This document shows positions 11,581 to 64,000 of a stretch of DNA of 64,000 bases, piece after piece. Within the stretch, counting starts at the first letter, position 1. Each line of letters starts with the position of its first letter. The position numbers and the translations under genes were made by a program. Source of the stretch: Staphylococcus sp. IVB6214. Its GTDB lineage: Bacteria > Bacillota > Bacilli > Staphylococcales > Staphylococcaceae. Below the pieces are notes generated by a model, which had not been told where the DNA came from, ran no database searches, and was given only the letters and a program-made list of their open reading frames with translations. The stretch spans positions 372,001 through 436,000 of the forward strand of contig NZ_CP094723.1 of NCBI RefSeq assembly GCF_025558585.1, in the 5' to 3' direction.

Positions 11581-11684
11581 AAAAACACGCATGGGATTAA
11601 GACATAATAAATTTGCGTTCTGAGAGACCAATATAGGGTGTCTCACAAGCAGAATTTTGTCGAAACGTCATGCGTGTTTTCATT
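11581..11684 (+). terminator. nupC terminator with a dispersed repeat in its loop
   Basis: AAAACACGCATG (ending 11593) and CATGCGTGTTTT (11669-11680) are perfect complements, with a T-rich tail after the second arm. The loop is 75 nt long and consists of a copy of the dispersed repeat. Without it this would be a standard Rho-independent terminator. Confidence 0.7.
11594..11668 (+). repeat. Dispersed structured repeat, copy R1 (short)
   Basis: It shares GACATAATAAATTTG and the following 25-nt hairpin module with copies at 20595, 58739 and 63832. Here the hairpin (11621-11645) has arms TGAGA/TCTCA plus ACC/GGT. About 25 bases of the second module follow (GCAGAATTTTGTCG), then the element stops. 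It lies inside the nupC terminator loop. Confidence 0.8.
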
Positions 11685-11697
11685 TTAATACATAAAA

Positions 11698-11785
11698 GAG
11701 GTAGGTACTCGAGCCAATACCTACCTATGAGCAAAACTATTCTCACTATAAACAACACAAAGGAGATATCCTATTTGTTGTATAA
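11698..11785 (+). other. Two consecutive hairpins upstream of the yitT-like gene
   Basis: The first hairpin has 9-bp perfect arms AGGTAGGTA/TACCTACCT (11699-11707, 11718-11726). The second is nested, with ACAACA/TGTTGT outer arms (11752-11757, 11776-11781) and a GGA/TCC core. They lie in a 280-bp stretch that has no gene. They may be a leader RNA, a small RNA, or a weak second terminator; nothing in the sequence decides. Confidence 0.35.
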
Positions 11786-11965
11786 AACAACCAATAAGGT
11801 AATTCTAATTATACATAATGATGAATGATAAGTAAACTAAAAAATCAGAAAATTAAACACTTCTTTTATAACTTAATTGAAAAGTCATCTAATAGCATTT
11901 CGTTTTGTGTCAATATTGTGATAATATGACATATGATAGTGATATATAGGGAAGGGTGTGATTGG

Positions 11966-12799
11966 GTGAAACGAACAGTTAGAGATTTAATATTAGTCCT
12001 AGTGGGCTCTTTTATATTTGCATTGGGTGTCAATGCGTTTATCATTTCGGGTGACTTAGGTGAAGGTGGCGTGACCGGTCTGGCGATCATTTTCTACTAT
12101 GCATTTCATATCTCACCTGCCATAACGAACTTTGTAGTCAATGCCGTGCTCATCGTCGTTGGTTATAAGTTTTTAAGTAAACGCAGTATGTATTTAACAA
12201 TTGTGGCAACAGTGCTAATTTCAGTATTTTTAAGTTTAACTGAAACGTGGCAAGTACATACAGACAATATTATGATTAATGCAGTATTTGGTGGATTGTC
12301 TGTCGGACTTGGGATAGGCGTTATTGTATTGGCTGGGGGTACAACAGCTGGAACAACAATTTTAGCGCGTATTGCTAATAAATATCTGGACGTTAGCACG
12401 CCGTATGCCTTGTTATTCTTTGATCTGATCGTTGTGCTGATTTCACTGTCAGTCATTCCATTAGACCGAGCACTTGTTACGGTCATCAGTTTATATATTG
12501 GTACGAAAGTGATGGACTTTGTCATTGAAGGTTTGAATCCTAAGAAGGCAGTGACGATTATTTCTAAATCACCAGATCGTATTGCGAAAATGATTGATGA
12601 AGATATTGGACGTGGCATTACAATTCTTAATGGACGTGGTTATTTTTCAAAAAGAGATACAGATGTACTTTATGCGGTAATCAGCAAAACACAGTTATCT
12701 CGAACGAAGCGGTTGATTCGTCAGATTGATGCGGACGCATTCGTTGTCGTCCATGATGTACGTGATGTATACGGGAATGGCTTCTGGGTAGAAGATTAG
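11966..12799 (+). CDS. YitT-family membrane protein (DUF161/DUF2179)
   Basis: A 277-aa protein with about five to six N-terminal membrane segments, including the conserved NAFIISGDLGEGGVTGLAI stretch and a glycine-rich GGTTAGTTI loop. It ends in a soluble DUF2179 domain (about 195-277, with GRGITILNGRGYFS). The family function is unresolved. The GTG at 11966 is chosen as the start because a GGAAGGG lies just upstream; an ATG at 11933 without a Shine-Dalgarno is also in frame. It ends in a strong hairpin. Confidence 0.8.
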   Translation: MKRTVRDLILVLVGSFIFALGVNAFIISGDLGEGGVTGLAIIFYYAFHISPAITNFVVNAVLIVVGYKFLSKRSMYLTIVATVLISVFLSLTETWQVHTDNIMINAVFGGLSVGLGIGVIVLAGGTTAGTTILARIANKYLDVSTPYALLFFDLIVVLISLSVIPLDRALVTVISLYIGTKVMDFVIEGLNPKKAVTIISKSPDRIAKMIDEDIGRGITILNGRGYFSKRDTDVLYAVISKTQLSRTKRLIRQIDADAFVVVHDVRDVYGNGFWVED

Positions 12800-12808
12800 C
12801 GATTGTGA

Positions 12809-12856
12809 AAATAATGAAGAGATGTGTGTATGAACACGCATCTCTTCATTATTTAT
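12809..12856 (+). terminator. Terminator after the yitT-like gene
   Basis: A 21-bp inverted repeat with one G-T pair (AATGAAGAGATG ... CATCTCTTCATT core) around a 4-nt loop, 9 bp after the stop codon. Confidence 0.85.
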
Positions 12857-12917
12857 ATCAATTTTCACAATGAGATACAGTTAGGCAAAAGATTTAAAAG
12901 ATGGTATAATACGCAAG

Positions 12918-12936
12918 TATGATAATGATTCTCAAT
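12918..12936. promoter_or_regulatory. Fur-like box upstream of fhuC
   Basis: TGATAATGATTCTCA (12920-12934) differs from the palindromic consensus TGATAATGATTATCA at one position. It lies about 55 bp before the fhuC start and just after a -10-like TATAAT (12905-12910). This predicts iron-dependent repression of fhuCBG. Confidence 0.8.
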
Positions 12937-12989
12937 AAGAATAAAGATTATGATATAGAGACGTATGACAGACAGAAAGAGGGAGAAGA

Positions 12990-13793
12990 ATGAGCAGATT
13001 GACAGGGAAGGAAGTTACAATAGGTTATGGAGATCGTGTCATTGTTAATAATTTAGATGTTACAATTCCTGACGGTAAGATTACGTCAATTATTGGTCCG
13101 AACGGCTGTGGTAAATCAACTTTACTAAAAGCATTATCACGATTACTTCAAACGAAAAATGGTGAGATCTTACTTGATGGTAAAAACATTCAGATGCAAC
13201 CTACCAAAGAAGTCGCTAAAAAGATCGCAATATTACCACAATCTCCAGATGTTGCAGATGGGTTAACAGCTGGCGAATTGGTATCATATGGGCGTTTTCC
13301 ACATCAAAAAGGATTTGGTCGATTGAGCGAACAAGATAAAGAAGAAATTGATTGGGCAATGCGTGTAACAGGAACAATTGACTTTAAACATCGTGCGGTG
13401 AATGATCTCAGTGGTGGCCAGAGACAGCGTGTATGGATTGCAATGGCATTGGCACAAAAAACAGACATTATCTTTTTAGATGAACCAACGACTTATCTTG
13501 ATATTTCACATCAGTTAGAAATATTAGAACTGGTTCAAGAGTTAAATGCAGAACATGGGACAACAATTATTATGGTATTACATGATATTAACCAAGCAAT
13601 CCGTTTTTCTGATCATTTGATTACTATGAAACAAGGAAATATTATTAAACAGGGTGAAACACAAGATGTGTTAAGTAATGAAATATTAGAAGAAGTATTC
13701 AATATTGATGCTGAGTTAAGTACTGATCCTAGAACGGGCAAACCGATGTTAGTGACGTATAACTTATTATGTAAGCATTATGACAAATTATAA
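12990..13793 (+). CDS. fhuC: FhuC, siderophore ABC transporter ATPase
   Basis: ATPase for Fe(III)-hydroxamate import; in S. aureus it also energises other siderophore permeases. It is 267 aa, with Walker A GPNGCGKST, signature LSGGQRQR, Walker B IIFLDEPTTYLD and H-loop MVLHDIN. Sequence and gene order (C-B-G) match S. aureus fhuCBG. A GGGAGAAG lies just before the ATG. No substrate-binding lipoprotein gene is adjacent, as in S. aureus where the binding proteins are encoded elsewhere. Confidence 0.95.
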   Translation: MSRLTGKEVTIGYGDRVIVNNLDVTIPDGKITSIIGPNGCGKSTLLKALSRLLQTKNGEILLDGKNIQMQPTKEVAKKIAILPQSPDVADGLTAGELVSYGRFPHQKGFGRLSEQDKEEIDWAMRVTGTIDFKHRAVNDLSGGQRQRVWIAMALAQKTDIIFLDEPTTYLDISHQLEILELVQELNAEHGTTIIMVLHDINQAIRFSDHLITMKQGNIIKQGETQDVLSNEILEEVFNIDAELSTDPRTGKPMLVTYNLLCKHYDKL

Positions 13794-13814
13794 AGGTGCA
13801 TAGAGGGAATCATT

Positions 13815-14816
13815 ATGAGAAGAAAACAAATAAGTCATCTCAATTTTTCGATACAACTACTCGTTGCGATCATCGTACTATGTACATTATTTGTGCTTTC
13901 CGTCATTCTAGGCGAAGCACATGTCCATGTTGCAACAATTATAGAAGCAATTCTACATTATGATGCTGCGAACCAAGTGCATAATGTGATTGCTGAAATA
14001 CGCATCCCTCGAAACATCGGTGCTGTGTTAGTCGGTATGGCACTTGCAACAGCAGGTGCAGTCATTCAAGGCGTTACAAAAAATGGCTTAGCAGACCCGA
14101 GTTTGATTGGTTTAAATGCAGGAGCGGCGTTTGCCTTAGCAACAACTTTTGCCTTTTATCCGGGGGCACCTTTTCTTATTTTAATTTTTACAGGATTTGT
14201 TGGAGCGGTTTTTGGTGGTATGACTGTCCTTATGATTGGTTCATCTCGACGTGACGGCTTTCATCCAATGCGTTTAATTCTAGCTGGAGCGGCCGTTAGT
14301 GCATTGCTTACCGCACTGAGTCAAGGTATCGCTTTAATATTCCGCCTCAACCAATCGATTAACTTTTGGAGTGCAGGTGGCGTTTCAGGGACAAACTGGC
14401 AACAAGTTTGGATTAGCGCACCTATCATCTTTTGCACAATTATTTTACTTATCCTGATGAGCAGACAATTAACGATACTGAGCTTGGGAGACGAGCTTGC
14501 GTCAGGGTTAGGTCAAAATGTTAAAACCATTCGTCTTGTGAGCCTATTATTGACAATGTTACTTGCAGGTATTTCTGTGGCAATGGTCGGTCAAATTGCT
14601 TTTGTCGGTCTCATCGTCCCACACATTGTCCGCTTTCTAGTTGGAACGGATTATGTCAAAGTATTACCGATGGCAGCGGTATTAGGTGGAACGCTCGTTC
14701 TAGCCGCAGACATGCTCGCACGTATGCTCGGTGAAGCACCGATGAGCGCCATTATTTCATTTATTGGTGTCCCATATTTTCTATATCTCATTCGTAAAGG
14801 AGGGCGTACGATATGA
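13815..14816 (+). CDS. fhuB: FhuB, siderophore permease subunit
   Basis: FecCD-family membrane subunit, 333 aa, with about nine to ten hydrophobic helices. Family signatures RIPRNIGAVLVGMALATAGA near the N-terminus and FVGLIVPHIVRFLVG near the C-terminus are present; the latter holds the coupling helix for FhuC. It is 21 bp after fhuC and overlaps fhuG by 4 bp, so the three genes form one operon. Confidence 0.93.
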   Translation: MRRKQISHLNFSIQLLVAIIVLCTLFVLSVILGEAHVHVATIIEAILHYDAANQVHNVIAEIRIPRNIGAVLVGMALATAGAVIQGVTKNGLADPSLIGLNAGAAFALATTFAFYPGAPFLILIFTGFVGAVFGGMTVLMIGSSRRDGFHPMRLILAGAAVSALLTALSQGIALIFRLNQSINFWSAGGVSGTNWQQVWISAPIIFCTIILLILMSRQLTILSLGDELASGLGQNVKTIRLVSLLLTMLLAGISVAMVGQIAFVGLIVPHIVRFLVGTDYVKVLPMAAVLGGTLVLAADMLARMLGEAPMSAIISFIGVPYFLYLIRKGGRTI

Positions 14817-15829
14817 TGCATCCGAAGCTTAAGTTACAACAGCGTCTAACCTTCTTGGTTGTCATTGTATTGTTAGCAGCTGCAATCGTCTGGAGTATGA
14901 CGACAGGTGAATATGCGATGTCCTTCTCTCAAGTTGTTCAAACATTGCTCGGTAATGGAACTTATGCAGACCAATTAATTTTGATTGATTTTCGCTTGCC
15001 ACGTATTTTTATTACATTGCTTGCGGGCTTGGCATTAAGCATGAGTGGCGCAGTATTACAAAGTGTCACTAAGAACCCATTGGCGGAACCTGGGATTTTA
15101 GGCATTAATGCAGGCAGTGGCTTTGCAATTGCATTGTTTATTGCGGTTGGACAGATTCATGCAGATGACTTTGTTTACATATTGCCGTTTGTCAGCATGA
15201 TCGGTGGCCTACTAACAGCACTTTTTATTTTTGTGTTTAGTTATAGCGGTGAGAAAGGTCTATCTCCAGCGAGTATGGTCTTAGTGGGTGTCGGGATTTC
15301 AACAGCACTATCTGGTGGCGCACTGACGATTATGTCAACATTTGATCGTGATCAATCGGAATTTATAGCGACGTGGTTGGCAGGAAATATTTGGGGAGAC
15401 AGTTGGCCATTTGTATGGGTCTTTCTTCCTTGGCTATTATTGCTTGTCCCATACTTATTTTTCAAATCAGAAACACTCAATATCTTACATACAAATGAAC
15501 ATACAGCGATCAGTTTAGGTGTGTCATTGAATAAAACAAGATTTGTCCTTGTATGCATTGCCGTGATGTTATCCTCAGCAGCGGTTTCAGTCGCGGGTGC
15601 AATTGGGTTTATAGGTTTGATGGGGCCACACATTGCCAAATCAATTGTCGGACCACGACATCAGTATTTTTTACCGATAGCCTTAGTGATAGGGGCGCTT
15701 TTATTAATCGTATCAGATACGATTGGTAAGGTTGTTCTTCAACCCACAGGGGTGCCGGCAGGTGTTGTTGTCGCAATTATTGGTGCACCATACTTTCTCT
15801 TTCTTATGTATCGCACACGTGCACTTTAG
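14813..15829 (+). CDS. fhuG: FhuG, siderophore permease subunit
   Basis: Second FecCD-family subunit, 338 aa, pairing with FhuB. Motifs FRLPRIFITLLAGLALSMSGA and FIGLMGPHIAKSIVGP mirror those in FhuB. The start overlaps the fhuB stop (ATGATG at 14813), and an alternative ATG at 14816 would shorten it by one residue. An AAAGGAGG lies just upstream, inside fhuB. It is the last gene of the operon. Confidence 0.93.
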   Translation: MMHPKLKLQQRLTFLVVIVLLAAAIVWSMTTGEYAMSFSQVVQTLLGNGTYADQLILIDFRLPRIFITLLAGLALSMSGAVLQSVTKNPLAEPGILGINAGSGFAIALFIAVGQIHADDFVYILPFVSMIGGLLTALFIFVFSYSGEKGLSPASMVLVGVGISTALSGGALTIMSTFDRDQSEFIATWLAGNIWGDSWPFVWVFLPWLLLLVPYLFFKSETLNILHTNEHTAISLGVSLNKTRFVLVCIAVMLSSAAVSVAGAIGFIGLMGPHIAKSIVGPRHQYFLPIALVIGALLLIVSDTIGKVVLQPTGVPAGVVVAIIGAPYFLFLMYRTRAL

Positions 15830-15932
15830 AAAGAAGATACATCATGCTATAATAAAAATTGCAGTGTGAAAGTCAATTTTGTGATACACTAGACGTATTA
15901 AAAATGACAGGATAAAGTTTGGGAGGAGCGCC

Positions 15933-16433
15933 ATGAAAGATTTAATTAAAAACCATGTGTTAAACGGTGAATTTGAATCAGTGAAACATTTAATGGCTGC
16001 GACGGATTTTCTAGCTTTTGAAGAAGCATTCATCTCAAGCGCACACGAGCAAGAAAGCGTGATGTACTACACGTGTTTACTCGATATGATCAAAGAGAAT
16101 GAAACATCTGAGATTCATGATTTGGCTTTCTTACTACTTGTTTATCCCCTCAGTGATGTACCAGGTGCATTGGATGCAGCCTATTATCATGCAGAGGCAT
16201 CGATTGAGCTGACTGGCGGCCAAGAAGTCAAAAGTCTATTACAGATGTTGTTACTGCATGCAATTCCAGAGCCGGTTATTTCTGATAAGCAAGCATTCAA
16301 TACAGCAAAACAAATCCTAAAGTTAGATCCGAATAATAAAGTTGCGCGTAACGTACTTAAAGAAACAGCAAAACGAATGGATCAAGTCGTTGTAGACTTC
16401 AATCAGATAACAGAGCATAAAGATGCTAATTAA
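15933..16433 (+). CDS. Conserved staphylococcal hypothetical protein
   Basis: A 166-aa soluble, acidic, mostly alpha-helical protein that I do not recognise. It has no signal peptide, membrane segment or cysteine-based motif. Its C-terminal half (about 95-150: paired helices and the KLDPNNKVARNVLKE stretch) resembles a TPR-like repeat, which would suggest a protein-binding role; this is inference only. It is preceded by GGGAGGAG and followed by its own terminator, so it seems monocistronic. Confidence 0.7.
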   Translation: MKDLIKNHVLNGEFESVKHLMAATDFLAFEEAFISSAHEQESVMYYTCLLDMIKENETSEIHDLAFLLLVYPLSDVPGALDAAYYHAEASIELTGGQEVKSLLQMLLLHAIPEPVISDKQAFNTAKQILKLDPNNKVARNVLKETAKRMDQVVVDFNQITEHKDAN

Positions 16434-16460
16434 GTAATATCCACATAGAATGTTTTTAGG

Positions 16461-16517: not shown

Positions 16518-16614
16518 TCATAGTTATATTTCTTAGTCTAAGCATGTAACTTTTCTTTTAACGAACAGGTTTGTATAATAGCAAAGTTACTTTAATTTTA
16601 AGGAGAATACGAAC

Positions 16615-18039: not shown

Positions 18040-18429
18040 ATCATGAGTTCTACTCGAATTCTAAGCGTTCGGTCCCAACTTTGGTATTTTTATTAAAGAT
18101 AAAATTCAATAAAGTGATTAAGAAAAATCAATACGGGTATAGTATACAAATAATATATTAATAAAAAATTACATTAAAAATTGATGCAAAATAATCTGTG
18201 ATTTCATTAATTCAATGATATGATGTATTTTTATGCGTTATTGTTGTCTTTATTTGTATTGATATACATATTTGTGTATGAATAAAGCGCTTAAAATTCA
18301 TTTAATAGTGCTTTAATCCCTATGATATCAATGGTTTTAGAGTTTTTGTGTGATGGAATGAATTTGAAATAAATCGTATATTATGGTTTAATGTTTAACG
18401 TGTTTTGCAAATCGAGGAGGTCAAAACAG
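18040..18429. other. Intergenic region with repeat remnant and a leader hairpin
   Basis: About 390 bp with no gene. At about 18052-18085 a short string (TCTAAGCGTTCGGTCCCAAC) resembles the end of the dispersed repeat and may be a degenerate copy. At 18284-18315 there is a hairpin with arms AAAGCGCT/AGTGCTTT extended by TAAA/TTTA past a bulge, upstream of the YkvI-type gene. The remainder is AT-rich and plain. Confidence 0.4.
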
Positions 18430-20568: not shown

Positions 20569-20594
20569 TGGATGCACCTGTTCTACTAGGGGGT

Positions 20595-20748
20595 GAGACA
20601 TAATAAATTTGTGCTCTGGGAAGCTGATAAACGGTGTCCCAAAAGCAGGGTTTTCGGCAGAACTCCCACGATTTCGGCAAAATTTGAAAAGCAATTTTGC
20701 TCATCGTTCGGTTCTGCTCAAATCTTAAGCATTTTTGTCCCAACCTCG
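20595..20748 (+). repeat. Dispersed structured repeat, copy R2
   Basis: Full module A: GAGACATAATAAATTTG, then a 25-nt hairpin at 20617-20641 with arms TGGGA/TCCCA. A diverged module B follows, in which GCAGAAC pairs with GTTCTGC and an inner hairpin has arms AAAATT/AATTTT (20679-20698). It ends at the CAACCTCG common to other copies. It fills the gap between the esterase gene and graR. A spurious N-terminal extension of graR reads through it. Confidence 0.85.
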
Positions 20749-20856
20749 TACGAATGGGTGTTTATTTATTTGGATGTATCGCATAATTTTGTAAGACATT
20801 TGTCGATAAACACGCTATATTTAATGTATGTGATAGATGTGATTAGGGGGGATCTG

Positions 20857-25380: not shown

Positions 25381-25586
25381 TTTGACTTTTTGTTATATAA
25401 GTAAATAAAATGTTAAGGTTTTGTAAATTCGATTGTCGGCTGACGTAATATGTGATATTTTCAAATATAGGTAAAAAATCTGAATGAAAACAAGTGGCTT
25501 TTAGTCATTTGAATAAATAAACGGCAACTTGGTAACGATCATCACAATGAGAGTGATTGCCCGACTTGCTGAACGGAGGATTTAAC

Positions 25587-29016: not shown

Positions 29017-29076
29017 AGATTTGATTCGATGGTCAGTTTTTAATATGATGATACTAGAGAACAATTAAATGGTTAA

Positions 29077-29176
29077 ATATCCACTGGAAGTGCCATATGA
29101 ACCGTTGGCTGAGATTGAAACGTATTTCAAAATTCCTGAACCTGATCCAGTTAGTACTGGCGTAGGAAAGTGGTTT
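29077..29176 (+). promoter_or_regulatory. TPP (THI-box) riboswitch
   Basis: The two conserved THI-box cores are present in order: TGGCTGAGATTG (29106-29117) and CCTGAACCTGATCCAG (29135-29150), followed by TACTGGCGTAGGAAAG. P1 is closed by CCACT (29081-29085) and AGTGG (29169-29173). A terminator hairpin follows at 29196-29236, then the thiazole operon. The layout predicts transcription attenuation when thiamine pyrophosphate is abundant. Confidence 0.93.
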
Positions 29177-29195
29177 TGCTTACGTATAAAATGTG

Positions 29196-36710: not shown

Positions 36711-37109
36711 ACGAGGTTGTGAGAGAAGCGTTTAGGGATTGAGCAGAACCCAAGCGGTGAGCAAAATCGCTTTTTGATTTTGTAGAGCCACGAAGTTCTG
36801 TCGCAAATTCTGTACTTTGAACACTGACATCAAACGAGGTTGTGAAAGAAGCGTTTAGGGATTGAGCAGAACCCAAGCGGTGAGCAAAATCGCTTTTTGA
36901 TTTTGTAGATCTGCGACGTTCTACCGAAAGCCCTGCTTCTCGAACACTGACATCAAACGAGGTTGTGAAAGAAGCGTTTAGGGATTGAGCAGAACCCAAG
37001 CGGTGAGCAAAATCGCTTTTTGATTTTGTAGATCTGCGACGTTCTGCCGAAAGCCCTGCTTCTCGAACACTGACATCACAACATTGGGACACCGTATATT
37101 GGTCTCCCA
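36711..37109 (-). repeat. Dispersed structured repeat, copy R3: three 123-bp tandem units
   Basis: The string ACGAGGTTGTGA occurs at 36711, 36834 and 36957, an exact 123-bp period. On the minus strand the array starts with a module A hairpin (37085-37109, arms TGGGA/TCCCA and ACC/GGT), then three module B units. Each unit has the nested helices AGAAGC/GCTTCT, AGGG/CCCT, GCAGAAC/GTTCTGC and AAAATC/GATTTT (or near variants). The first two minus-strand units are nearly identical; the last is more diverged. It lies between two convergent genes. Confidence 0.92.
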
Positions 37110-37129
37110 GTATGCGTCTTAGTTTCTTT

Positions 37130-40071: not shown

Positions 40072-40539
40072 TTATTCAAATGAATGTGACTGTAGAAGGA
40101 TATGCATCAATTTTTGTTTGAATGCAAGATGTTGTGCTTGAGTAAAAGGTTTTGGGCCCTTGTGATGACGCTTTGTTTGTTGGCGTAACTGTTGATGGTG
40201 ATAACGTTGTGCTAGAAGTTCATCTATCTTTTCAGTAGTATATTGATAGCCTGTATGATGTAAAAGATAAGCTGCTTTATTTAAAGCTAAACTTGCCAAA
40301 CCATAATCTTGTGTAACAACAATGTCAGTTGAGCTGACTTCACGTAAAAGTGCAAAGTCAACGGCATCACGTCCACCATCCAAATATTTTACTTGAACGT
40401 GCGACGGATACACTTGATATGAAAAGTGATCATAACTACGAAATATGCAAACAGAGACGCCTGCACGTTCTGATAATTGAACAATCGTGTCAATCACAGG
40501 GCAGGCATCTCCATCAATAAGTATACGTGTGATTTGCAT
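40072..40539 (-). CDS. YaiI/YqxD family protein (UPF0178, DUF188)
   Basis: A 155-aa PIN-like fold protein. The start RILIDGDACPV, the middle DFALLREVSSTDIVVTQDYGLASLAL and the RHHKGPKPF stretch are hallmarks of UPF0178. Conserved Asp residues suggest a metal-dependent nuclease-like site, but activity is not established. Its ATG overlaps the stop of the preceding coiled-coil gene by one base, so the two are translationally coupled. Confidence 0.88.
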   Translation of the reverse strand: MQITRILIDGDACPVIDTIVQLSERAGVSVCIFRSYDHFSYQVYPSHVQVKYLDGGRDAVDFALLREVSSTDIVVTQDYGLASLALNKAAYLLHHTGYQYTTEKIDELLAQRYHHQQLRQQTKRHHKGPKPFTQAQHLAFKQKLMHILLQSHSFE

Positions 40540-41336
40540 TATAAATCAGGTGTTTGATTGTGTACTTGATCACTTCTGTATGTTGTTTCTTTCGCTTGGT
40601 GACGTTCTGACAAAGTCTTAATACGTTGTGGTTGTTGAGTCGAATGCAAGTTTGAATCAGTTTGTTGCTTTTTCTTATCTTCTTTTTGTGTTTGTTTTAA
40701 TTGTTTTTTCAATGCTTTTTGTCGTTTTTGACGTACTTTCTCTTCAACTTTATGACGTTTTTGAATGTTTTTTTGAAGTTTTTTATCTAACTTACTGACT
40801 ATTTTCTTATTTTTCTTAGCGATCTTGTCACCATGTGCTTCTATTTCTGGTTCAACTGTATTTGGTTCAAAGCCCACCTGTTTAGAATATTTTTGCATGC
40901 GTTGTAAATCTTTCTTCATTTGCTTTTGACGGTGCGCTTGTGCTTTTTCTTCAGCTTTATGACGCTTATCCATCGCTTTTTGAAGTTTTTTATCGAGCTT
41001 TTGAATCCCTTTATTATTTTCTTTAGCAAGTTGTTCACCACGAGCATGAACATTTTCAGGACGCATTGCACGTTCAGCTGCTTCAGCTTGTTTTACAGCT
41101 TTTTTATAATCATGTTGCGCTTTTTTCGCTTTGACATGTGATGTTACCTTATGTGTGCGGTCAACGACACCATCTTTGACATGTACTGCAGCATGGCCAG
41201 TTTTAGTTGCTGCTGTTTTTGATGACGCTGCTATTTTTTGAACATCTGGATGTTCTTTAAATTTTTTACGTTCTAAAATGAGTGGTACTAAGAAGACAGG
41301 AAGTACAGTGATGATCATTTTGATTGTTTTATTCAT
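40539..41336 (-). CDS. Basic membrane-anchored coiled-coil protein with an internal repeat
   Basis: A 265-aa protein that I do not recognise. A short N-terminal hydrophobic segment (about 6-21) is followed by an extremely Lys/Gln-rich helical body. Two copies of a roughly 53-residue unit are visible, at about 95-150 and 165-220. They share the order acid-H-G/ARG-E/D-x-[LI]AK-N-N/K-K, then LDKKLQK, KRHK-EEK and RQK. The tail is polar. It probably binds acidic polymers (nucleic acid or teichoic acid), which is inference. GGAGG precedes the ATG at 41336. It is coupled to the UPF0178 gene. Confidence 0.75.
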   Translation of the reverse strand: MNKTIKMIITVLPVFLVPLILERKKFKEHPDVQKIAASSKTAATKTGHAAVHVKDGVVDRTHKVTSHVKAKKAQHDYKKAVKQAEAAERAMRPENVHARGEQLAKENNKGIQKLDKKLQKAMDKRHKAEEKAQAHRQKQMKKDLQRMQKYSKQVGFEPNTVEPEIEAHGDKIAKKNKKIVSKLDKKLQKNIQKRHKVEEKVRQKRQKALKKQLKQTQKEDKKKQQTDSNLHSTQQPQRIKTLSERHQAKETTYRSDQVHNQTPDL

Positions 41337-41423
41337 ATTCGTTGCCTCCATTTTGTTTAATTTGATAACTACTTTATACCCAATGTACCATAAAATAAAC
41401 ACATATACCCATTAAGAAGATAT

Positions 41424-41490
41424 GAAAGAAGCGTTTAGCATTCGAGCAGAATTCGAATAATGAGCAAAATCGCTTTTTGATTTTGTGGCG
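41424..41490 (-). repeat. Dispersed structured repeat, copy R4 (half unit)
   Basis: On the minus strand this reads as the second half of module B: AAAATCAAAAAGCGATTTT (inner hairpin), a TTCTGCTC segment and AAACGCTTCTTTC. The 5' arms are absent, so it is a truncated copy. It lies upstream of the coiled-coil gene and after the uppP terminator. Confidence 0.75.
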
Positions 41491-51759: not shown

Positions 51760-51765
51760 AATAAA

Positions 51766-51903
51766 AAAGCGCTCATGCCTCTATCATTTTAAGTGACCAA
51801 ACAAAAAATTGAGAGGAGACATGATGCGCCTATGTGTGATGATATATTAAAACTACCAAAAATAAAAGATGAAAATATTCAAGTTTTTAAAGTGGAAGTG
51901 TGA
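51766..51903 (+). pseudogene. ISL3-like transposase remnant
   Basis: Bases 51769-51830 carry an inverted repeat (GCGCTCATGCCTCT ... AGAGGAGACATGATGCGC) like the leader upstream of staphylococcal ISL3-family transposases. It is followed by an ATG at 51832 reading MCDDILKLPKIKDENIQVF before a stop at 51901-51903. This resembles the start of an ISL3 transposase (xLxLxxIKDxNI pattern). The rest of the gene is gone. Confidence 0.5.
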
Positions 51904-57718: not shown

Positions 57719-58729
57719 GTGAAAGTAAGAGTAATTGTACCTTGTTATAATGAAACAGCTGTTTTACAACGTACGATCGATAAGTTACAGGAAATTTTAG
57801 ATGAGGATGCGATAAAACAAGGTTACACATATGACTTATTATTTGTAGATGATGGTAGTAAAGATACGACAATCGATATTTTGCAACAAGCAGCAACACA
57901 GTCCCCCGTTGTGAAGTTTATATCTTTTAGCCGTAATTTTGGCAAAGAAGCTGCTATGATTGCAGGATTTGAACATAGTGTCGATTGTGATGCAGTCGTG
58001 ATGATTGATGCAGATTTACAACATCCCCCAGAAATGATTCCCGATATGATCAAAGCATACGCTGACGGTTATGATCAAGTAGTTGCAAAGCGCAATCGTG
58101 ACGGTGAAACAGCAAGTCGCAAGTGGATGACACGCTTGTATTATAAGATGATAAATCACTGGGTTGAAGATATTGAATTGGTAGATGGTATTGGAGACTT
58201 TCGTCTGTTGAGTCAACGTGCAGTACGTTCTCTCGTTAGTATGCGTGAGTATAATCGTTTTTCAAAAGGTCTTTTTGCATGGATTGGTTATAGTACAAAA
58301 ATTATCAGTTATGACAACGTGATGCGAGAAGCAGGTGAATCTAAATGGTCATTTAGAAGCTTGCTTAACTATGCTATTGATGGACTAATCTCCTTTAACA
58401 ATAAGCCGCTCCGCATGATGATATACTTAGGTGTATCGGTTTTTGGTGTTAGTCTTCTGTATATTATCTATCTGTTGATTGATACGCTTTTACATGGCGT
58501 CTCTGTACCTGGATATGTCACAATGATTGCTGCAATCTTGCTTATGGGTGGTATCCAGCTGATTTCTATCGGAGTAATTGGTGAATATATCGGACGTATT
58601 TATTATGAGGTAAAACAACGACCAAACTATATTGTTCGTGCTGCAAATGTTGACCGACCTTCTAAAGATTCATATGACGCCTCATATACGAATCATATGG
58701 AAGAGAAACAACATAGTATTTCTAAATAA
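57719..58729 (+). CDS. csbB: CsbB-like GT2 glycosyltransferase
   Basis: A 336-aa polyprenyl-phosphate glycosyltransferase of the GtrB/DPM1 type. It has VIVPCYNE at the start, VDDGSKDTT, the catalytic MIDADLQHPPEMI and two C-terminal membrane helices (about 230-255 and 265-290). In S. aureus CsbB loads GlcNAc on a lipid for lipoteichoic acid glycosylation with YfhO. Orthology is likely from sequence type and neighbourhood to mpfA, but is not proven. The GTG at 57719 follows a TAGGTG; the 9-residue longer TTG start is less likely. Confidence 0.75.
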   Translation: MKVRVIVPCYNETAVLQRTIDKLQEILDEDAIKQGYTYDLLFVDDGSKDTTIDILQQAATQSPVVKFISFSRNFGKEAAMIAGFEHSVDCDAVVMIDADLQHPPEMIPDMIKAYADGYDQVVAKRNRDGETASRKWMTRLYYKMINHWVEDIELVDGIGDFRLLSQRAVRSLVSMREYNRFSKGLFAWIGYSTKIISYDNVMREAGESKWSFRSLLNYAIDGLISFNNKPLRMMIYLGVSVFGVSLLYIIYLLIDTLLHGVSVPGYVTMIAAILLMGGIQLISIGVIGEYIGRIYYEVKQRPNYIVRAANVDRPSKDSYDASYTNHMEEKQHSISK

Positions 58730-58736: not shown

Positions 58737-59016
58737 GAGGCTGAGACATATTACATTTATGTTCCGGGAAACTAATATATGGTATCTCTAAAACAGAGCT
58801 TTTGTCGGAAATTCGCAACTTTGAAAAATAAGAAACCGATTTTGAGAATTGCTTGGGTTCTGCTCAACCCCTAAGCGCTTCTTTCACAACCTCGTGATGT
58901 CAGTGTTCAAGAAGCAGGGCTTTCGACAGAACGTCGCAATTCCCCAAAATAAAAAAGCTATTTTGAGAATTGCTTGGGTTCTGCTCAACCCCTAACCGCT
59001 TCTTTCACAACCTCGT
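58737..59016 (+). repeat. Dispersed structured repeat, copy R5: module A and two module B units
   Basis: It opens with GAGACATATTACATTTATG and a 25-nt hairpin at 58765-58789 (GGGA/TCTC with G-T pairing). Two module B units follow, both ending in CTTTCACAACCTCG. The second has the inner hairpin AAAATA/TATTTT (58946-58964), GACAGAAC/GTTCTGCTC arms and AGAAGCAGGG/CCCCTAACCGCTTCT outer arms. It lies directly after the csbB-like gene. Confidence 0.88.
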
Positions 59017-59025: not shown

Positions 59026-59260
59026 GCATCCCAAAAGTTGGATTAAAAATCTAACTTTATGGGGTGTATTTTTTATGAGTAGATATGATAAATTTGAATT
59101 TAAAATGTAAATCGTTCAAGAATACTTAAATGATAATTGATGCTTTAAAAACTTAGCAAAAAATACGATCTCCCTGTAAAATTTTTATTTAGAGATTTTG
59201 TGTCACCATATAATGCACCATTGTGCTGGAGACTTTTTCTACTTCTGAAATAGATTGAAC
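59026..59260 (+). pseudogene. IS3-family orfA remnant
   Basis: A hairpin with AAAGTTGGATT/AATCTAACTTT arms (59034-59058) and a T-rich stretch precede ATG at 59075, which reads MSRYDKFEFKM then a stop. Continuing in the same frame past the stop gives IVQEYLNDN, stop, CFKNLAKN. This is the decayed start of an IS3/IS150-type orfA (xRYxxEFKxKIVQEYL pattern). No orfB is left. Confidence 0.7.
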
Positions 59261-59430
59261 TTAGCAATTAGTATTTGCAGGTGATTGCTGTAAGTATAGT
59301 CATGCTCACTCGTACTTGTTAAAACCGCATGATGTATAGAAGTCGTAATGCACTATTATCATTAAATATACTTTGTATAAAATTAGACGTAAAAAGAAGA
59401 AACATCGCTTTTTATTTTTTCAGTTTTAAA
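59261..59430. other. AT-rich gap before the TetR-ABC operon
   Basis: About 170 bp with no supported gene; probably decayed IS sequence. Confidence 0.4.
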
Positions 59431-59434
59431 AGCA

Positions 59435-59497
59435 TTGACAAGTGAGTGAGTACTCACTATAATACAAGTAGCTAATAGGTGAGTGAGTACTCACTCG
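59435..59497 (+). promoter_or_regulatory. Promoter with twin palindromic TetR operators
   Basis: A near-ideal promoter: -35 TTGACA (59435-59440), 17-bp spacer, -10 TATAAT (59458-59463). Operator 1 (GTGAGTACTCAC, 59446-59457) fills the spacer. Operator 2 is the perfect 16-bp palindrome GAGTGAGTACTCACTC (59481-59496), downstream of the -10. Their centres are 37 bp apart. The third gene of the operon encodes a TetR-family protein, the likely ligand. Confidence 0.88.
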
Positions 59498-59517
59498 AAT
59501 AAAATGAGGTGATAATA

Positions 59518-60237
59518 ATGGAAAAGATGATTGAAATCAATCACTTAAAGAAATCATTCGATTCTCAGGTTGTATTGAATGGTGTCTCACTTGATGTAGT
59601 AGGTGGTGAGATTATTGGACTGATTGGTCCATCAGGTTCTGGTAAATCAACGTTAATTAAAACAGTTTTAGGCATGGAAAAGGCAGATGGTGGCGAAGCA
59701 TTTGTATTAGATATATCGATGCCTAACAGAAAAATACTTGCAGACATTGGCTATATGGCACAGTCGGATGCACTCTACGAAGCATTGTCAGCGAAAGAAA
59801 ATTTATTATTTTTCGGTCAAATGAAAGGAATTAACAAAGAAGATCTGAAGCAACAAATTCAACATGTTTCAGAAGTTGTAGAATTAACAGACCAGTTGAA
59901 TAAAAGAGTGGGAAGTTATTCTGGAGGGATGAAACGTCGATTATCCTTAGCGATCGCTTTGCTAGGAAAACCGAGATTATTGATTTTAGATGAACCGACC
60001 GTTGGTATAGACCCGTCTTTAAGAAAAAAGATATGGCGAGAGTTAGATGCATTACGTCAAGAAGGTTGCGGCATTTTGATTACAACACATGTTATGGATG
60101 AAGCGGAATTGACAGATAAAGTTGCATTGTTATTACGTGGTGACGTCATTGCATTTGATACACCCGCACAATTAAAGGAACTGTATCAAGTAAACACTGT
60201 TGAAGAAGCATTTTTGAAAGCAGAAGGAGGGCAATAA
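59518..60237 (+). CDS. ABC exporter ATPase (DrrA/CcmA-like)
   Basis: A 239-aa NBD with Walker A GPSGSGKST, signature YSGGMKRRLS and Walker B LLILDEPTVGIDPS, typical of ABC-2 drug or lipid exporters. It pairs with the permease gene one base further on. ATGAGGTGAT lies upstream of the ATG at 59518. It is controlled by the twin-operator promoter. Exported substrate unknown. Confidence 0.9.
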   Translation: MEKMIEINHLKKSFDSQVVLNGVSLDVVGGEIIGLIGPSGSGKSTLIKTVLGMEKADGGEAFVLDISMPNRKILADIGYMAQSDALYEALSAKENLLFFGQMKGINKEDLKQQIQHVSEVVELTDQLNKRVGSYSGGMKRRLSLAIALLGKPRLLILDEPTVGIDPSLRKKIWRELDALRQEGCGILITTHVMDEAELTDKVALLLRGDVIAFDTPAQLKELYQVNTVEEAFLKAEGGQ

Positions 60238-60238
60238 C

Positions 60239-61345
60239 ATGAGAGCATTTGCGATTGCTAAAAAAGTATTTAAAGAATTAATTCGAGATAAACGCACACT
60301 TGCATTAATGTTTGTTGCGCCCATTTTTATTATGTGGCTCATGAATGTCATGTTCACAGCAAACAATACAACAGAAGTGAACATGGCGGTAGTGGGTGTT
60401 GACCAAAACATCGTATCCACAATGGATGATGTCAAACATGTGTCAGCTAAAAATTATGAACGTATTGATGCAGCTGAAAAAGCACTTAGCAAAGAAAAAG
60501 TGGATGCGATTGTATCAACAGATGATAATGAAAACTTTAGCATTATTTATGCTAATAGAGATGCTTCCAAAACTGCGATGAGTAAGCAAGTGTTTAAACA
60601 AGCAGTGACATCTTCACAAGTAAAAGAGATGACAAAAAATGTACAGGCACTTGTAAAAGCAAGTCCAAATCCGAAAGCATCAGATCAGTTACAAAAACCG
60701 TCTATTTCTTTAGACGAATATTATGATTACGGTGATGAAGATTCTGGATTTTTCATTAAGATGATTCCAGTATTGATGGGCTTTATGGTCTTCTTCTTTG
60801 TCTTTTTAATTTCGGGAATGGCATTGTTGAAGGAGCGAACATCTGGAACTTTAGATCGCTTACTAGCAACGCCGGTACGCCGAGCGGATATCGTATTTGG
60901 CTATATGCTCAGTTATGGATTTTTAGCGATTATCCAGACATTAGTTATTGTTATTGCAACGATTAATTTATTGAAAATTGAAGTGGTTGGAAGTATTGCT
61001 TATGTTGTATTGGTTAATTTTGTACTTGCAATGGTTGCATTGGCATTTGGAATTTTGATGTCAACACTTGCTAAGTCAGAATTCCAAATGATGCAATTTA
61101 TCCCATTAGTTGTAATGCCACAGCTGTTTTTCTCAGGGTTGATTCCTTTAGAAAATATGGCGAATTGGGTTCAAGTCATTGGAAAAATATTGCCGTTATC
61201 GTATTCAGGACATGCCTTGTCACAAATTATTCTTTGGGGTAATGGATGGAATGAAATTATAGGTGATTTAGGTATTTTAATGCTCTTCTTAATTGTTTTG
61301 ACAGCATTGAATATCATTGTTTTAAAACGTTATCGTAAGGTATAA
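60239..61345 (+). CDS. ABC-2 type exporter permease
   Basis: A 368-aa ABC2_membrane_3-type permease (YhgE/YbhR-like). One N-terminal helix (about 20-40) is followed by a roughly 140-residue extracytoplasmic domain, then five to six C-terminal helices (about 175-360). KERTSGTLDRLLATPVRR and the FFSGLIPLENM helix are typical. A GGAGGG at the end of the ATPase gene precedes the ATG. It forms a transporter with the preceding ATPase. Confidence 0.9.
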   Translation: MRAFAIAKKVFKELIRDKRTLALMFVAPIFIMWLMNVMFTANNTTEVNMAVVGVDQNIVSTMDDVKHVSAKNYERIDAAEKALSKEKVDAIVSTDDNENFSIIYANRDASKTAMSKQVFKQAVTSSQVKEMTKNVQALVKASPNPKASDQLQKPSISLDEYYDYGDEDSGFFIKMIPVLMGFMVFFFVFLISGMALLKERTSGTLDRLLATPVRRADIVFGYMLSYGFLAIIQTLVIVIATINLLKIEVVGSIAYVVLVNFVLAMVALAFGILMSTLAKSEFQMMQFIPLVVMPQLFFSGLIPLENMANWVQVIGKILPLSYSGHALSQIILWGNGWNEIIGDLGILMLFLIVLTALNIIVLKRYRKV

Positions 61346-61352
61346 TGAGCAT

Positions 61353-61979
61353 ATGAATACAAATCAATTTCCAACATTTAAAGAACAATTAGAAAGTGCG
61401 TCTATGCCACCTGGACAAAGAAAAGCCATGTTAGCAGCAATCAAACTTTTTTCAGAGCAAGGATATCATGCGACATCGACAGCCCAAATTGCGAAAGAAG
61501 CCGGAATCAGTCAAGCAACAATCTTTAAATATTTTAGTACGAAAGAAGAATTATTGATGGGACTACTTGAGCCTTTAAAAGAGATTGTAGGCAAGACATT
61601 TATCAAAGATTTGACTCAACATCAAGACTTGGAAAGCTTAATTCATTTCATCGTTACAGATCGGTATGCTTTCTTTTCAGCAAATGGAGATTTTCTCAAA
61701 ATTATCTTTCAAGAAGCGATGATTTCACCTAAGTTAAGAGAAGCATTGATAACCAACTCTAAAAAGTTAATGCCAAACTTATTTCATCATATTAATAGCG
61801 TTTTAGAAAGTGACGCGAAGCTAGATAGAAGTCTTACAAAAGTAGATCGTATACGAACAATTATCGCACCACTGTTCATGTATATATTACAAACGCAAAT
61901 TTTTTCGATTAAAACAGGTGATGCAGAAACAGAATTACAAATGGTAGCCTCCCAAATTATCAAAAGTTTACGTCAATAA
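61353..61979 (+). CDS. TetR-family repressor of the ABC exporter operon
   Basis: A 208-aa TetR protein with an N-terminal HTH (about 20-66: AIKLFSEQGYHATSTAQIAKEAGISQATIFKYFSTKEEL) and an all-helical ligand domain. It is the last gene of the three-gene unit and probably represses it by binding the twin palindromes at 59446 and 59481, which is inference from layout. The start codon is 7 bp after the permease stop. A strong terminator follows. Confidence 0.92.
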   Translation: MNTNQFPTFKEQLESASMPPGQRKAMLAAIKLFSEQGYHATSTAQIAKEAGISQATIFKYFSTKEELLMGLLEPLKEIVGKTFIKDLTQHQDLESLIHFIVTDRYAFFSANGDFLKIIFQEAMISPKLREALITNSKKLMPNLFHHINSVLESDAKLDRSLTKVDRIRTIIAPLFMYILQTQIFSIKTGDAETELQMVASQIIKSLRQ

Positions 61980-62012
61980 AAAAACGGTTTGCAATTGCAA
62001 ACCGTTTTTTAC
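61979..62012. terminator. Bidirectional terminator after tetR-type gene
   Basis: AAAAACGGTTTGCAA directly abuts its complement TTGCAAACCGTTTTT (61980-62010), a 15-bp palindrome with A and T ends, between convergent genes. Confidence 0.88.
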
Positions 62013-62023
62013 TACGTTATCAC

Positions 62024-62278
62024 TTATTTTTTACCGCGAAGTGCACCTAAGATAAGTGACACAACTGCGATAAAGATAATTGAGCCGATCAATGCTGGGA
62101 ATACATAGATGCCACCGAATGATGGTCCCCATGCGCCTAGGAACATGCCGCCTACCCAAGAACCGAGTAAACCAGCGATAATATTACCTAAAATCCCACC
62201 TGGGATATCTTTACCTAAAATTGCTCCGGCAGCCCAACCAATGAGACCACCAACTATTAACATGACAATAAAGCCCAT
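62024..62278 (-). CDS. GlsB/YeaQ/YmgE family membrane protein
   Basis: An 84-aa protein with three hydrophobic helices and glycine-rich repeats (GGLIGWAAGAILGKDIPGGILGNIIAGLLGSWVGG). This is the transglycosylase-associated (Transgly_assoc) family, usually stress-induced and sometimes anchoring Asp23-type proteins. AGGAGGCTAT precedes the ATG. Function is not defined. Confidence 0.9.
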   Translation of the reverse strand: MGFIVMLIVGGLIGWAAGAILGKDIPGGILGNIIAGLLGSWVGGMFLGAWGPSFGGIYVFPALIGSIIFIAVVSLILGALRGKK

Positions 62279-62353
62279 TATAATAGCCTCCTTTGTATTT
62301 AAATCTTTGTGATAATACTGATATACCCGGTTGTCATAGATTTAATCATTAAA

Positions 62354-62941
62354 TTATAAAATAAATAATTTTTCTGCGTATAAGATGAAGGCGAACCCAC
62401 CGTATAGCAAGATAAATATATACCAAAAAGGTGTTAGTGCAACGATGACAATCATTGCGATAAGTATGAGCAGTGTTCCTATCCAAAGTGGTTGTTTAAT
62501 TTTGAGACGGCGATATAATTGGTGGAACCAAGCTGAATTGAAAGTGCTTGAAAACAACAGAATCGCACCAAATGCAAAAATAGCAGGTGCAAGATATGGG
62601 ACAGACATATAGAACGACTGATCAGCTGTTTGATCTACCACAACAAGGGAGATACTTATCATAATCGTTAGTATCCCTGTCAAAAACTTTTGTTGTGTCA
62701 TAACAAAAGGGTGATAGTAATGGTTTAAATAATATTGTAAAATCGTCCAGATACAATACATTAGTACAGTAAATATAGATATAAAACTAAGTTTACCCAG
62801 TAAAATTAAATTAATAAAACCATTTATTGTAATAGCAAGCAAGACACTACTAAAGTGTAATGACTGAAATCGGTGTCGATATAAGTCAAAAACGAGTATA
62901 GCAATTACAACGATACTATTTATAATGACAAAAGCGGCCAT
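62354..62941 (-). CDS. Hypothetical polytopic membrane protein
   Basis: A 195-aa protein made almost wholly of hydrophobic segments (about six to seven helices) with short basic loops (DLYRHRFQS; YRRLKIKQP). No family recognised and no catalytic motifs seen. A TTAGGAGAAT precedes the ATG. It stands alone between other minus-strand genes. Confidence 0.65.
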   Translation of the reverse strand: MAAFVIINSIVVIAILVFDLYRHRFQSLHFSSVLLAITINGFINLILLGKLSFISIFTVLMYCIWTILQYYLNHYYHPFVMTQQKFLTGILTIMISISLVVVDQTADQSFYMSVPYLAPAIFAFGAILLFSSTFNSAWFHQLYRRLKIKQPLWIGTLLILIAMIVIVALTPFWYIFILLYGGFAFILYAEKLFIL

Positions 62942-63062
62942 GTTATTCTCCTAACTCATTACATTTCATTTCTATATTATAACAATGTAAATATAAGTTG
63001 GCATGTAAAAAGTGGAGATAACTGGTAATAATTTTGAACATATAGATGCAATAGCGTACAAA

Positions 63063-63102
63063 AAAAGATGAAGTTTCTCGAACGGGAAACTTCATCTTTT
63101 AT
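63063..63102 (-). terminator. Terminator after the coiled-coil membrane gene
   Basis: AAAAGATGAAGTTTC pairs with GAAACTTCATCTTTT (63063-63100), 7-nt loop; on the minus strand it follows the gene at 63104 and leads into a T run. Confidence 0.85.
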
Positions 63103-63103
63103 G

Positions 63104-63796
63104 CTAATTATTAAACCAATCACTAATTTTTTGTGTGATTTCATCGAGTTTAGTATTAACGCGGTTGAGTTGTTCTTGCATCTTTTCTAGATTACCACTT
63201 TGTCGTTCATCTTCAGCATTTTGTAAGTTATCGACTGTATCGTCATATTGATTGGCAACTTGATCTGCTTTTTTGCTATCGATGTCATCTCGTAGTTCTT
63301 GAATTTGTTGTTTCAATTGATCGATTTTACTTTGAGATTCTGCATCATTGGAAGCAATGCTGTCTTGTGTGTCTTTAATTTGCTGTTGTAATTCATTATC
63401 TTTTTGTTGTAACAGTTCTTCATTTGTCACTTGATTTTGTTCTTCTGGATTCATCGTATGATCCGTATCATTTGTACATGAATTAAATAAAAACAGTGCG
63501 ATGACGAAGAGTGAGATGACCATGATAACGAGCAACCACTTATTTTTACGGTTTGTCTTTTGAAGTTCTATATCTTTTTGACGTAAATATTCATAATCTT
63601 GAGTATGTGTGTGTGGCTGTTGCGCAGTGTTTTTAATTAGAATGCCGCCAAAAATATCGTATTGTTGCTGATCGGTTAAAGTATGAATATTGAGATCAGT
63701 ATTCAGTTGATTGCGTTTGTCATAAGCGATAATCGTACCATCTTCTAAAACTTTTTCGACTCTTGGATAAACATCAGAACGTTCTCTGCGTCGCAT
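63104..63796 (-). CDS. Single-pass membrane protein with extracellular coiled coil
   Basis: A 230-aa protein: a soluble N-terminal part (1-70, RERSDVYPRVEKVLEDGT, then TDQQQYDIFGG), a basic stretch, one membrane helix (about 87-105) and a long acidic coiled coil to the end (QQKDNELQQQIKDTQDS and similar heptads). The type II topology places the coil outside. No family recognised. The ATG at 63796 follows AGGAGTG; the longer frame to 63838 would enter repeat R6. Confidence 0.72.
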   Translation of the reverse strand: MRRRERSDVYPRVEKVLEDGTIIAYDKRNQLNTDLNIHTLTDQQQYDIFGGILIKNTAQQPHTHTQDYEYLRQKDIELQKTNRKNKWLLVIMVISLFVIALFLFNSCTNDTDHTMNPEEQNQVTNEELLQQKDNELQQQIKDTQDSIASNDAESQSKIDQLKQQIQELRDDIDSKKADQVANQYDDTVDNLQNAEDERQSGNLEKMQEQLNRVNTKLDEITQKISDWFNN

Positions 63797-63831
63797 TGTA
63801 TCACTCCTATATGTTGGAATCAGATGGGAAC

Positions 63832-64000
63832 GGGACATAATAAATTTGTTTTCTGAGAAAGCAGTATAAGGTGTCCCAATGTTGTGTCAGTGTTCGAGAA
63901 GCAGGGCTTTCGGCAGAACGTCGCAATTCTCCAAAATAAAAAAGCTATTTTGATCGCTGCTCTGGTTCTGTTCAATCCCTAGACGCTTCTCTCACAACTC
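63832..64000 (+). repeat. Dispersed structured repeat, copy R6 (runs to window edge)
   Basis: Module A: GGGACATAATAAATTTG pairs at its ends with TGTCCC, and the 25-nt hairpin is at 63854-63878. Module B is complete, with nested helices: GTTGTG/CACAAC (63881-63886, 63993-63998), AGAAGC/GCTTCT (63897-63902, 63985-63990), AGGG/CCCT, GCAGAAC/GTTCTGT (63913-63919, 63965-63971) and AAAATA/TATTTT (63933-63951). It may continue beyond the window. Confidence 0.9.

Follow-up and report, generated by a model that had tools for sequence, protein, structure and literature searches.

MITE-like staphylococcal repeats that replace terminator hairpins and are probably moved by an IS1182-family transposase

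Six copies of a dispersed repeat, R1 to R6, lie in a 64,000-nucleotide (nt) stretch of the genome of Staphylococcus sp. IVB6214 (contig NZ_CP094723.1, positions 372,001 to 436,000; hereafter the window), and comparison with related genomes makes it probable that they belong to a family of elements resembling miniature inverted-repeat transposable elements (MITEs), moved by an IS1182-family transposase through replacement of stem-loops. That the element is mobile, gene-less and replaces terminators is well supported, while the assignment of the mover to the IS1182 family is likely and is based on sequence comparison. Elements are present in one genome and absent from its sister at orthologous sites, most of the empty sites hold a hairpin, target duplication is missing at nearly all of them, the element ends resemble those of a resident insertion sequence (IS) with the same type of target, one copy is nested in another repeat, and at some sites one repeat is exchanged for another between species. 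The original prediction, made from the window, had proposed a mobile non-autonomous element, a regulatory RNA or a processing site and had recognised no named family. The first of these is now supported by presence and absence in the sister genome, by the ends shared with the IS and by near-identical copies elsewhere, there is no need to invoke a regulatory RNA or a processing site, and the rule for the target site and the link to an IS go beyond what had been proposed.

Architecture and copies in the window

The full unit of about 160 nt consists of terminal repeats GAGGCTGAGACATAAT / TGTCCCAACCTCGT, a small hairpin (module A) and a long hairpin (module B), which in full copies follow each other as left end GAGGCTGAGACATAATAAATTT, hairpin A, hairpin B (~114 nt) and right end TGTCCCAACCTCGT. 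Such a unit has coding room for at most ~53 codons, i.e., it is short and gene-less as a MITE should be. B units are also found alone or in tandem, at a spacing of 121-123 nt. The window contains the following copies and parts:

R1, 11594..11668, plus strand: A module plus its two flanks; occupies the loop of a terminator-like hairpin, the stem of which, AAAACACGCATG/CATGCGTGTTTT, is still there
R2, 20589..20749, plus strand: full-length copy (ends, A, B), within the loop of a hairpin that has CACCTGTTC/CGAATGGGTG as its stem
R2 left terminal repeat, 20589..20604, plus strand: GGGGGTGAGACATAAT; 14 of 16 bases match the IS1182-type IS end GGGGCTGGGACATAAT
R2 right terminal repeat, 20736..20749, minus strand: ACGAGGTTGGGACA, reading inward
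R3, 36711..37110, minus strand: three tandem B units and one A, between convergent genes, replacing a whole terminator-like hairpin
R4, 41414..41486, minus strand: B-unit remnant without A, between the gene 40539-41402 and uppP
R5, 58737..59016, plus strand: A and two B units, directly 3' of the gene ending at 58729, replacing a terminator-like hairpin
R6, 63826..64000, plus strand: A and one B unit, truncated by the end of the window
B-end fragment, 18047..18085, plus strand: 39 nt, recognised by eye; the sister genome G069 has a different repeat here

All six copies were found at, or within a few bases of, their predicted places and in both orientations. The claim that they share modules A and B fails for R4, and the tandem B units had gone uncounted, namely three in R3 (36711-36824, 36834-36947 and 36957-37070, 123 nt from start to start) and two in R5 (58782-58895 and 58903-59016). 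Their intergenic position holds in that every copy lies outside convincing genes; parts of open reading frames (ORFs) are nevertheless overlapped by R2 (a response-regulator ORF, in its upstream extension only), by R3 (a 170-codon ORF on the opposite strand) and by R6 (the first codons of ORF 63104-63838 as listed, whose true start is probably lower, behind a stretch that by eye resembles a Shine-Dalgarno sequence).

Most empty sites in a sister genome are strong hairpins

The source genome (G000, 2.19 Mb) has a UppP protein that is 94% identical to that of S. microti, 93% to that of S. americanisciuri and 92% to that of S. rostri, and among the 23 genomes asked the nearest by this protein are G069 (99% identical) and G098 (97%), which served as main reference and second relative, respectively. 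G069 is collinear with the window at ~90% DNA identity, and breaks in the alignment coincide with the elements. At the sites of R1, R2, R3 and R5 it carries a hairpin segment of 19-31 nt, with the alignment broken at the element edges and the outer stem persisting around R1 and R2, so that here the comparison of loci with and without a copy, proposed together with the original prediction, has been made and finds hairpins in place of the elements. Between AAAACACGCATG and CATGCGTGTTTT, G069 has 19 nt as compared to 75 nt in the window at R1, and a short hairpin is present in G098 too. At R2, the stem CACCTGTTC/CGAATGGGTG is retained, with 23 nt in G069 and 167 nt in the window. The R3 site in G069 consists of GGATAGCTGGGGTCAGCTATCC and a T run, against 423 nt in the window, and G098 has a degenerate B copy there; at R5, G069 has a hairpin of 30 nt and behind it a T run, against 669 nt in the window, of which ~280 are element and ~390 other DNA. 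R4 is present in G069 as well and is therefore probably older than the split of the species, and R6 was not seen at this place in either G069 or G098.

Extending the comparison, we examined 34 sites in G069, which are the six window sites and 28 others (18 element regions and ten IS copies) located by their 100-nt flanks. They represent a part of all copies; L013, five blastn places in the source genome without a locus and further places matching the B-module model lie outside the set. The sites fall into four groups:

Cleanly empty in G069 (13): R1, R2, R3, R5, L002, L004, L006 and L017; IS copies L177, L185, L187, L189 and L192
Occupied in both genomes (8): R4, L005, L010, L014, L016, L019 and L029; L008 partly
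Other sequence in G069 (5): L003, L007 and L012; another repeat at L020 and L025
Without resolution (8): R6, L022, L026, L181, L183, L190, L194 and L195

Fold energies were calculated for the 13 cleanly empty sites over 60 nt centred on the replaced piece. Their median was -22.4 kcal/mol. Two control sets fold much less stably, the figure being -6.9 for 1500 G069 positions drawn at random from intergenic DNA (p=4.6e-7) and -8.0 for 1200 positions that lie no more than 100 nt from the 3' end of a gene (p=9.4e-6). Of the 13 empty sites, ten are strong hairpins (six out of eight for elements, four out of five for the IS), which places them in the lowest 6.5% of the random-intergenic control and the lowest 13.2% of the 3'-end control. 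A direct repeat of 4 nt or more is missing at 12 of the 13, i.e., there was no target duplication, and the exception, a CATG repeat at R1, belongs to the stem of that site.

A resident insertion sequence shares ends and target type with the element

Ten matches to the transposase domain PF05598 in the source genome represent one IS of ~1.83 kb. One transposase was tested and proved to be a complete member of the IS1182 family (NF033551, 387.7 bits, cutoff 270), with the domains PF13751, PF01609 and PF05598. The left end of the IS reads GGGGCTGGGACATAAT in all ten copies and its right end TATGTCTCAGCCC(C), also written ATGTCTCAGCCC(C), in nine, that of L190 deviating. The terminal repeats of the element resemble the left end of this resident IS in 14 of 16 bases at R2 and in 13 of 16 at R5, which starts with GAGGCTGAGACATATT. 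Moreover, element and IS have the same target mode, replacing a hairpin without target duplication: among the five IS sites that are cleanly empty in G069, L177, L185, L189 and L192 are strong hairpins and L187 is a weak one, and at L185 the IS replaces, almost to the base, a perfect stem AGTGTGACATCCA.../...TGGATGTCACACT before TTTTT. Terminal repeats like those of a resident IS and a shared target mode are both features of a MITE.

Support comes as well from G046, in which both IS ends read GGATGGGACATA. Right ends of the element were scanned in seven of 20 fetched loci of this genome and found in five, and four of these five carry GGATGGGACATA, L065 having GATTGGGACATA; the left ends are more worn. 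Across the genomes examined, most IS1182-type copies have ends of type GRGNCTGGGACATAA. PF05598 was found in G000, G046, G091 and G054, and in eight of 16 further genomes.

Paired changes and fold

Separate from the question of mobility, the original prediction rested on paired base changes, and in the individual copies these are partly as described. In module A, the arms TGAGA/TCTCA of R1 and TGGGA/TCCCA of R2 and R3 are correct, but the arms of R6 (TGAGA/TCCCA) and R5 (GGGA/TCTC), which had not been mentioned, are imperfect, and the inner ACC/GGT holds for R1 and R3 but not for R2. The inner hairpin of module B reads AAAATC/GATTTT in R3 and R4, AAAATT/AATTTT in R2 and AAAATA/TATTTT in R6 and, of the two units of R5, in the second but not the first. 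R2 folds at -52.8 kcal/mol (z=-4.1 versus shuffles), and its complement strand at z=-3.0.

Whether both sides change together was assessed in an alignment of 25 rows, consisting of 20 of the 25 non-redundant A+B matches (L017, L020, L022 and L030, with odd A-B spacing, and L032 being left out) and five B-only rows; these copies are related, so that their changes are dependent events. By some measures the claim stands. Both-side changes occur in 20 cells compared with 10.2 (sd 2.5) after shuffling, and the covariation score is 0.097 compared with 0.081, neither being reached in any of 500 shuffles. The proposed helices are paired in 82.2% of cells versus 81.1% in shuffled alignments (1/500 as high) and in 31-58% when slid out of register. 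By other measures it does not, since pairs with a both-side change (10 versus 7.3; 58/500) and further pair types (32 versus 32.1; 316/500) show no excess. In the inner helix, 109 of 125 cells are Watson-Crick versus 86.0 (sd 3.7) in shuffles (0/5000); MAFFT had misaligned this helix, and its register, set by eye, favours pairing. Among 18 distinct haplotypes, 74 of 90 cells are Watson-Crick versus 56.4, and AT and GC pairs are swapped for each other at positions 1, 3 and 4 of the helix. Of the five helices, that of the ends (73% of cells paired) and that of hairpin A (66%) are weak. A consensus structure from RNAalifold on the first alignment was rejected, as it contained nine pairs only and the B-only rows and two inner types were misaligned; the covariance model named R1 was therefore close to a sequence profile, and the structure was afterwards set by hand.

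Distribution and genomic context of the family

R2 has 37 matches in its own genome (blastn, E<=0.001), and the B-module model matches 42 of 108 genomes of the bacterial family, the source genome included, of which 34 belong to the same genus (again with the source genome), seven to a second and one to a third. As no more than 28 candidates were scored in any genome, under strict filters, high counts per genome are lower bounds, with at least 28 copies each in G069, G098 and G079 and at least 28 in G046, where 18 of 20 fetched loci are identical in the B sequence as printed. In G046 (L060-L079), many of the near-identical B copies sit in palindromic composites of ~600 nt with further hairpins, at many chromosomal places. 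L002 is nested inside a second repeat with the ends GGGAGTGGGACAG / CGTCCCACCCC, and L020 and L025 have a different repeat at the same G069 site, starting with GGGGCTGATACATAG or AGAGCTGAGACATAT.

According to crude ORF calls, which include several ORFs running across the edge of an element, 20 of the 23 element regions considered are bordered on one or both sides by the 3' end of a gene, and the flanking ORFs are tandem in 13, convergent in seven and divergent in three. Ten neighbour proteins that were scanned have no common function. Searches at the Rfam gathering score returned no match at the repeats of the window, in agreement with the earlier failure to recognise a named family, and none at 11 related loci, where two matches below the gathering score were at chance level. 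The Rfam matches in the window lie elsewhere, these being a TPP riboswitch at 29076-29185 (RF00059, 76.4 bits), ahead of an ORF starting at ~29247, and a match to the small RNA sau-5949 (RF02396) at 51763-51822 on the minus strand, just above the gathering score. R2 had no match in 72,556 plasmid records or 50,697 phage records, and an element region of G046 had no plasmid match; phage matches of the latter region, all in the first quarter of the query, were rejected and taken to be due to a neighbouring gene.

How the element may move, and what else could explain it

The steps by which we envisage this family to spread are as follows. An IS1182-family DDE transposase would recognise the element ends and would choose as target a palindrome, in practice an intrinsic-terminator hairpin, without reading a target sequence; it would cut in the stem or at its foot, and the element would replace the loop or the whole hairpin with no duplication. 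Being a single large hairpin, the element would leave the upstream gene with a hairpin followed by its old T run, so that insertion would cost little and transcription may still be terminated. The element would also bring new hairpin targets, by which elements could nest in and replace each other. It appears to be the hairpin form itself that is recognised, and termination presumably persists after insertion; accordingly, the most likely role at the RNA level is that of a stand-in for the intrinsic terminator that was replaced. Selection for termination, or else hairpin-templated repair, may keep the arms complementary, and it should be borne in mind that covariation in repeats need not signal a functional RNA. 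If this reading is correct, abundant and unexplained staphylococcal repeats are linked to a transposase family, and a selfish element may spare its host by assuming the function of the site it destroyed.

Several observations weigh against this reading. Five of the 34 sites have other sequence in G069 and eight are without resolution, three empty sites are weak (L002 with -8.9, L017 with -6.4 and the IS site L187 with -10.4 kcal/mol), L002 fails to fit by pairs as well, R6 has no obvious hairpin as target, and the polarity of R3 is uncertain owing to the degenerate B copy in G098. A simple terminator scan, which covers loops of 3-8 nt only, marked in R3 the three inner B hairpins and one hairpin (37093-37116) at the A-module end, and found nothing inside R1, R2, R5 and R6. 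With regard to the mover, the similarity between element and IS stops after ~14-16 nt, beyond which the sequences differ; a subterminal kinship of the A end with the left and the B end with the right IS end is unsupported, neither element end clearly favouring one IS end; and modules A and B are both absent from 43 PF05598 loci (20 and 23). The interior of the element is therefore not derived from the IS examined, a point in which it departs from a MITE whose inside comes from its IS. Many MITEs share only the ends with their IS. Finally, the copy-rich genomes G069, G098 and G079 have no match to PF05598, so that the transposase has been lost there or is a different one.

The last point, together with the short reach of the end similarity, is also what speaks for a hairpin-replacing mobile element served by a different family of transposase, or else by an enzyme that sees hairpins in single strands, with convergent similarity to IS1182 ends. 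We consider this unlikely, because the resident IS all but matches the element in its ends and shares its unusual target mode, and because in G046 one variant peculiar to the species is common to the IS ends and to most of the right ends seen on elements. More doubtful still is a structured RNA, either cis-regulatory or small, that is maintained because of its own function at these loci and owes its covariation to selection on RNA. The helices that by some measures covary across 25 copies, the stable fold on both strands and the intergenic position would be in line with such an RNA, but R1, R2, R3 and R5 are missing at the orthologous sites of a genome that is 90% identical, copies occur in both orientations, in tandem and nested, the scanned neighbour proteins have nothing in common, the repeats match no Rfam family, and hairpin-templated repair can produce covariation as well. 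Least probable of all appears a spread without any transposase, in which template switching during replication and gene conversion between palindromes extend and swap hairpins; although these processes could in principle yield paired changes, nested palindromes and tandem B units, the invaded stems (e.g., AAAACACGCATG at R1) are unrelated to the element and offer no homology to start conversion, and neither the sharp edges nor the many near-identical B copies at distant places of G046 fit such an origin. Stem-loop replacement by an IS1182-family transposase thus remains the explanation that we favour.

Other features of the window

Two copies of GTGAGTGAGTACTCACT at 59442-59514 overlap a 12/12 match to a sigma-70 promoter (59435-59463) ahead of the ORF at 59509; the pair resembles a repressor operator and is partly retained in G069 and G098. 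Within ORF 40539-41402, which has no Pfam match, a stretch of 111 nt is repeated at 40683-41000 with 71% identity. Opposite 25542-25552 of the window, where the window has 9 nt, G098 contains a long ORF, transposase-like by eye, that adjoins a GGGGCTGGGACATAG-type repeat with terminal GTCCCACTCCC.

Relation to STAR repeats and other known systems

The STAR repeats of S. aureus resemble the present family in being short intergenic staphylococcal repeats with species-specific sites and tandem units (PMC3532100), but they are defined by TGTTGNGGCCC, which is absent from the window even with one mismatch (0 matches), a point in which the present copies differ from STAR. The motif occurs 37 times in G091, 50 times in G028 and 50 times in G083, genomes that appear to belong to the S. 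aureus complex, with 0, 0 and 1 occurrences of the backwards pattern. Twelve loci from G028 and G083 were sought in G091, to which most of the flanks are 89-97% identical, and five resolve; the others matched three places (L232), had no match (L245, L254) or were without resolution (L226, L235, L236, L242). L253 and L230 have a plain terminator-like hairpin of 34 nt in G091, L241 and L250 an element of the present family (nhmmer E 7e-29 and 2e-32), and L227 other sequence, i.e., four of the five fit in having a plain hairpin or the present element in the sister species, a small test with an outcome in the predicted direction. Four of the five resolved STAR-bearing insertions also start with a TG(G/A)GACA-like end or AGTAGGACAG. 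Furthermore, five of eight PF05598 loci of G091 carry the strict STAR motif in their left end, upstream of the transposase (L176, L184, L188, L191, L193), and in G028 it is near none of five such loci, with a looser form in L271; as some IS copies lack the motif, STAR may be a repeat that inserted into the IS and not one that arose from it.

A shared dispersal origin with STAR is thus possible. Our judgement is evenly balanced on the wider proposal that one mechanism accounts for all dispersed intergenic repeats of the genus, STAR included, all being non-autonomous hairpins with IS1182-type ends that replace terminators and each other. If this were true, staphylococcal terminators would be a battlefield of competing hairpin elements, the dispersal of STAR, left open in the relevant passages of Purves et al. 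2012, would have an answer, and the origin of repeats that serve as strain-typing markers (PMC3532100) would become testable. The passages on STAR and IS1272 in PMC7477909 name both and draw no link, and in searches of open-licence full texts we recognised neither an IS1182-derived staphylococcal MITE nor a link between STAR and IS1272.

Among other small repeats, the pneumococcal RUP, BOX and SPRITE are, in the relevant passages of PMC10969869, likewise small and insert into each other, SPRITE being terminator-like, but they belong to another genus and are likened here by description. The same kind of likeness applies to Sta-1, Sta-3 and Sta-4 of S. aureus, intergenic stem-loops of 105, 136 and 99 nt according to the part of PMC2267715 that describes them. 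REP and ERIC palindromes are also palindromic and intergenic, whereas the present elements have terminal repeats of 14 nt and replace their target; a kinship with REP elements of the GTAG/CGTC kind, which are marked by a tetranucleotide tag at one end and a RAYT transposase, finds no backing in PMC3733652, which contains no staphylococcal family (0 mentions of Staphylococcus).

The closest parallels are two members of the IS1182 family. As described in the passages on their target sites, IS1272 replaces inverted repeats without duplication (PMC5678879, 2017), and TnSha1 sits in hairpins, five of seven being terminators confirmed by RNA-seq (PMC4923244, 2016). Both thus replace palindromes, often terminator hairpins, without target duplication, as the present element does, and tandem copies of an end region, comparable to those seen here, are reported for IS1272 in sections of the same two papers; the word 'MITE' does not occur in the main text of PMC5678879, and the letter string 'star' appears in it twice. 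The likeness concerns the target mode, the element ends having been compared only with IS1182-type copies, mostly of type GRGNCTGGGACATAA. IS1272 and TnSha1 differ from the element in that they carry a transposase, TnSha1 also fabI, while the element has ~160 nt and no gene. Hairpin-replacing transposition is known for whole IS, and the gene-less elements described here appear to use the same hairpin replacement to colonise the terminators of their hosts.

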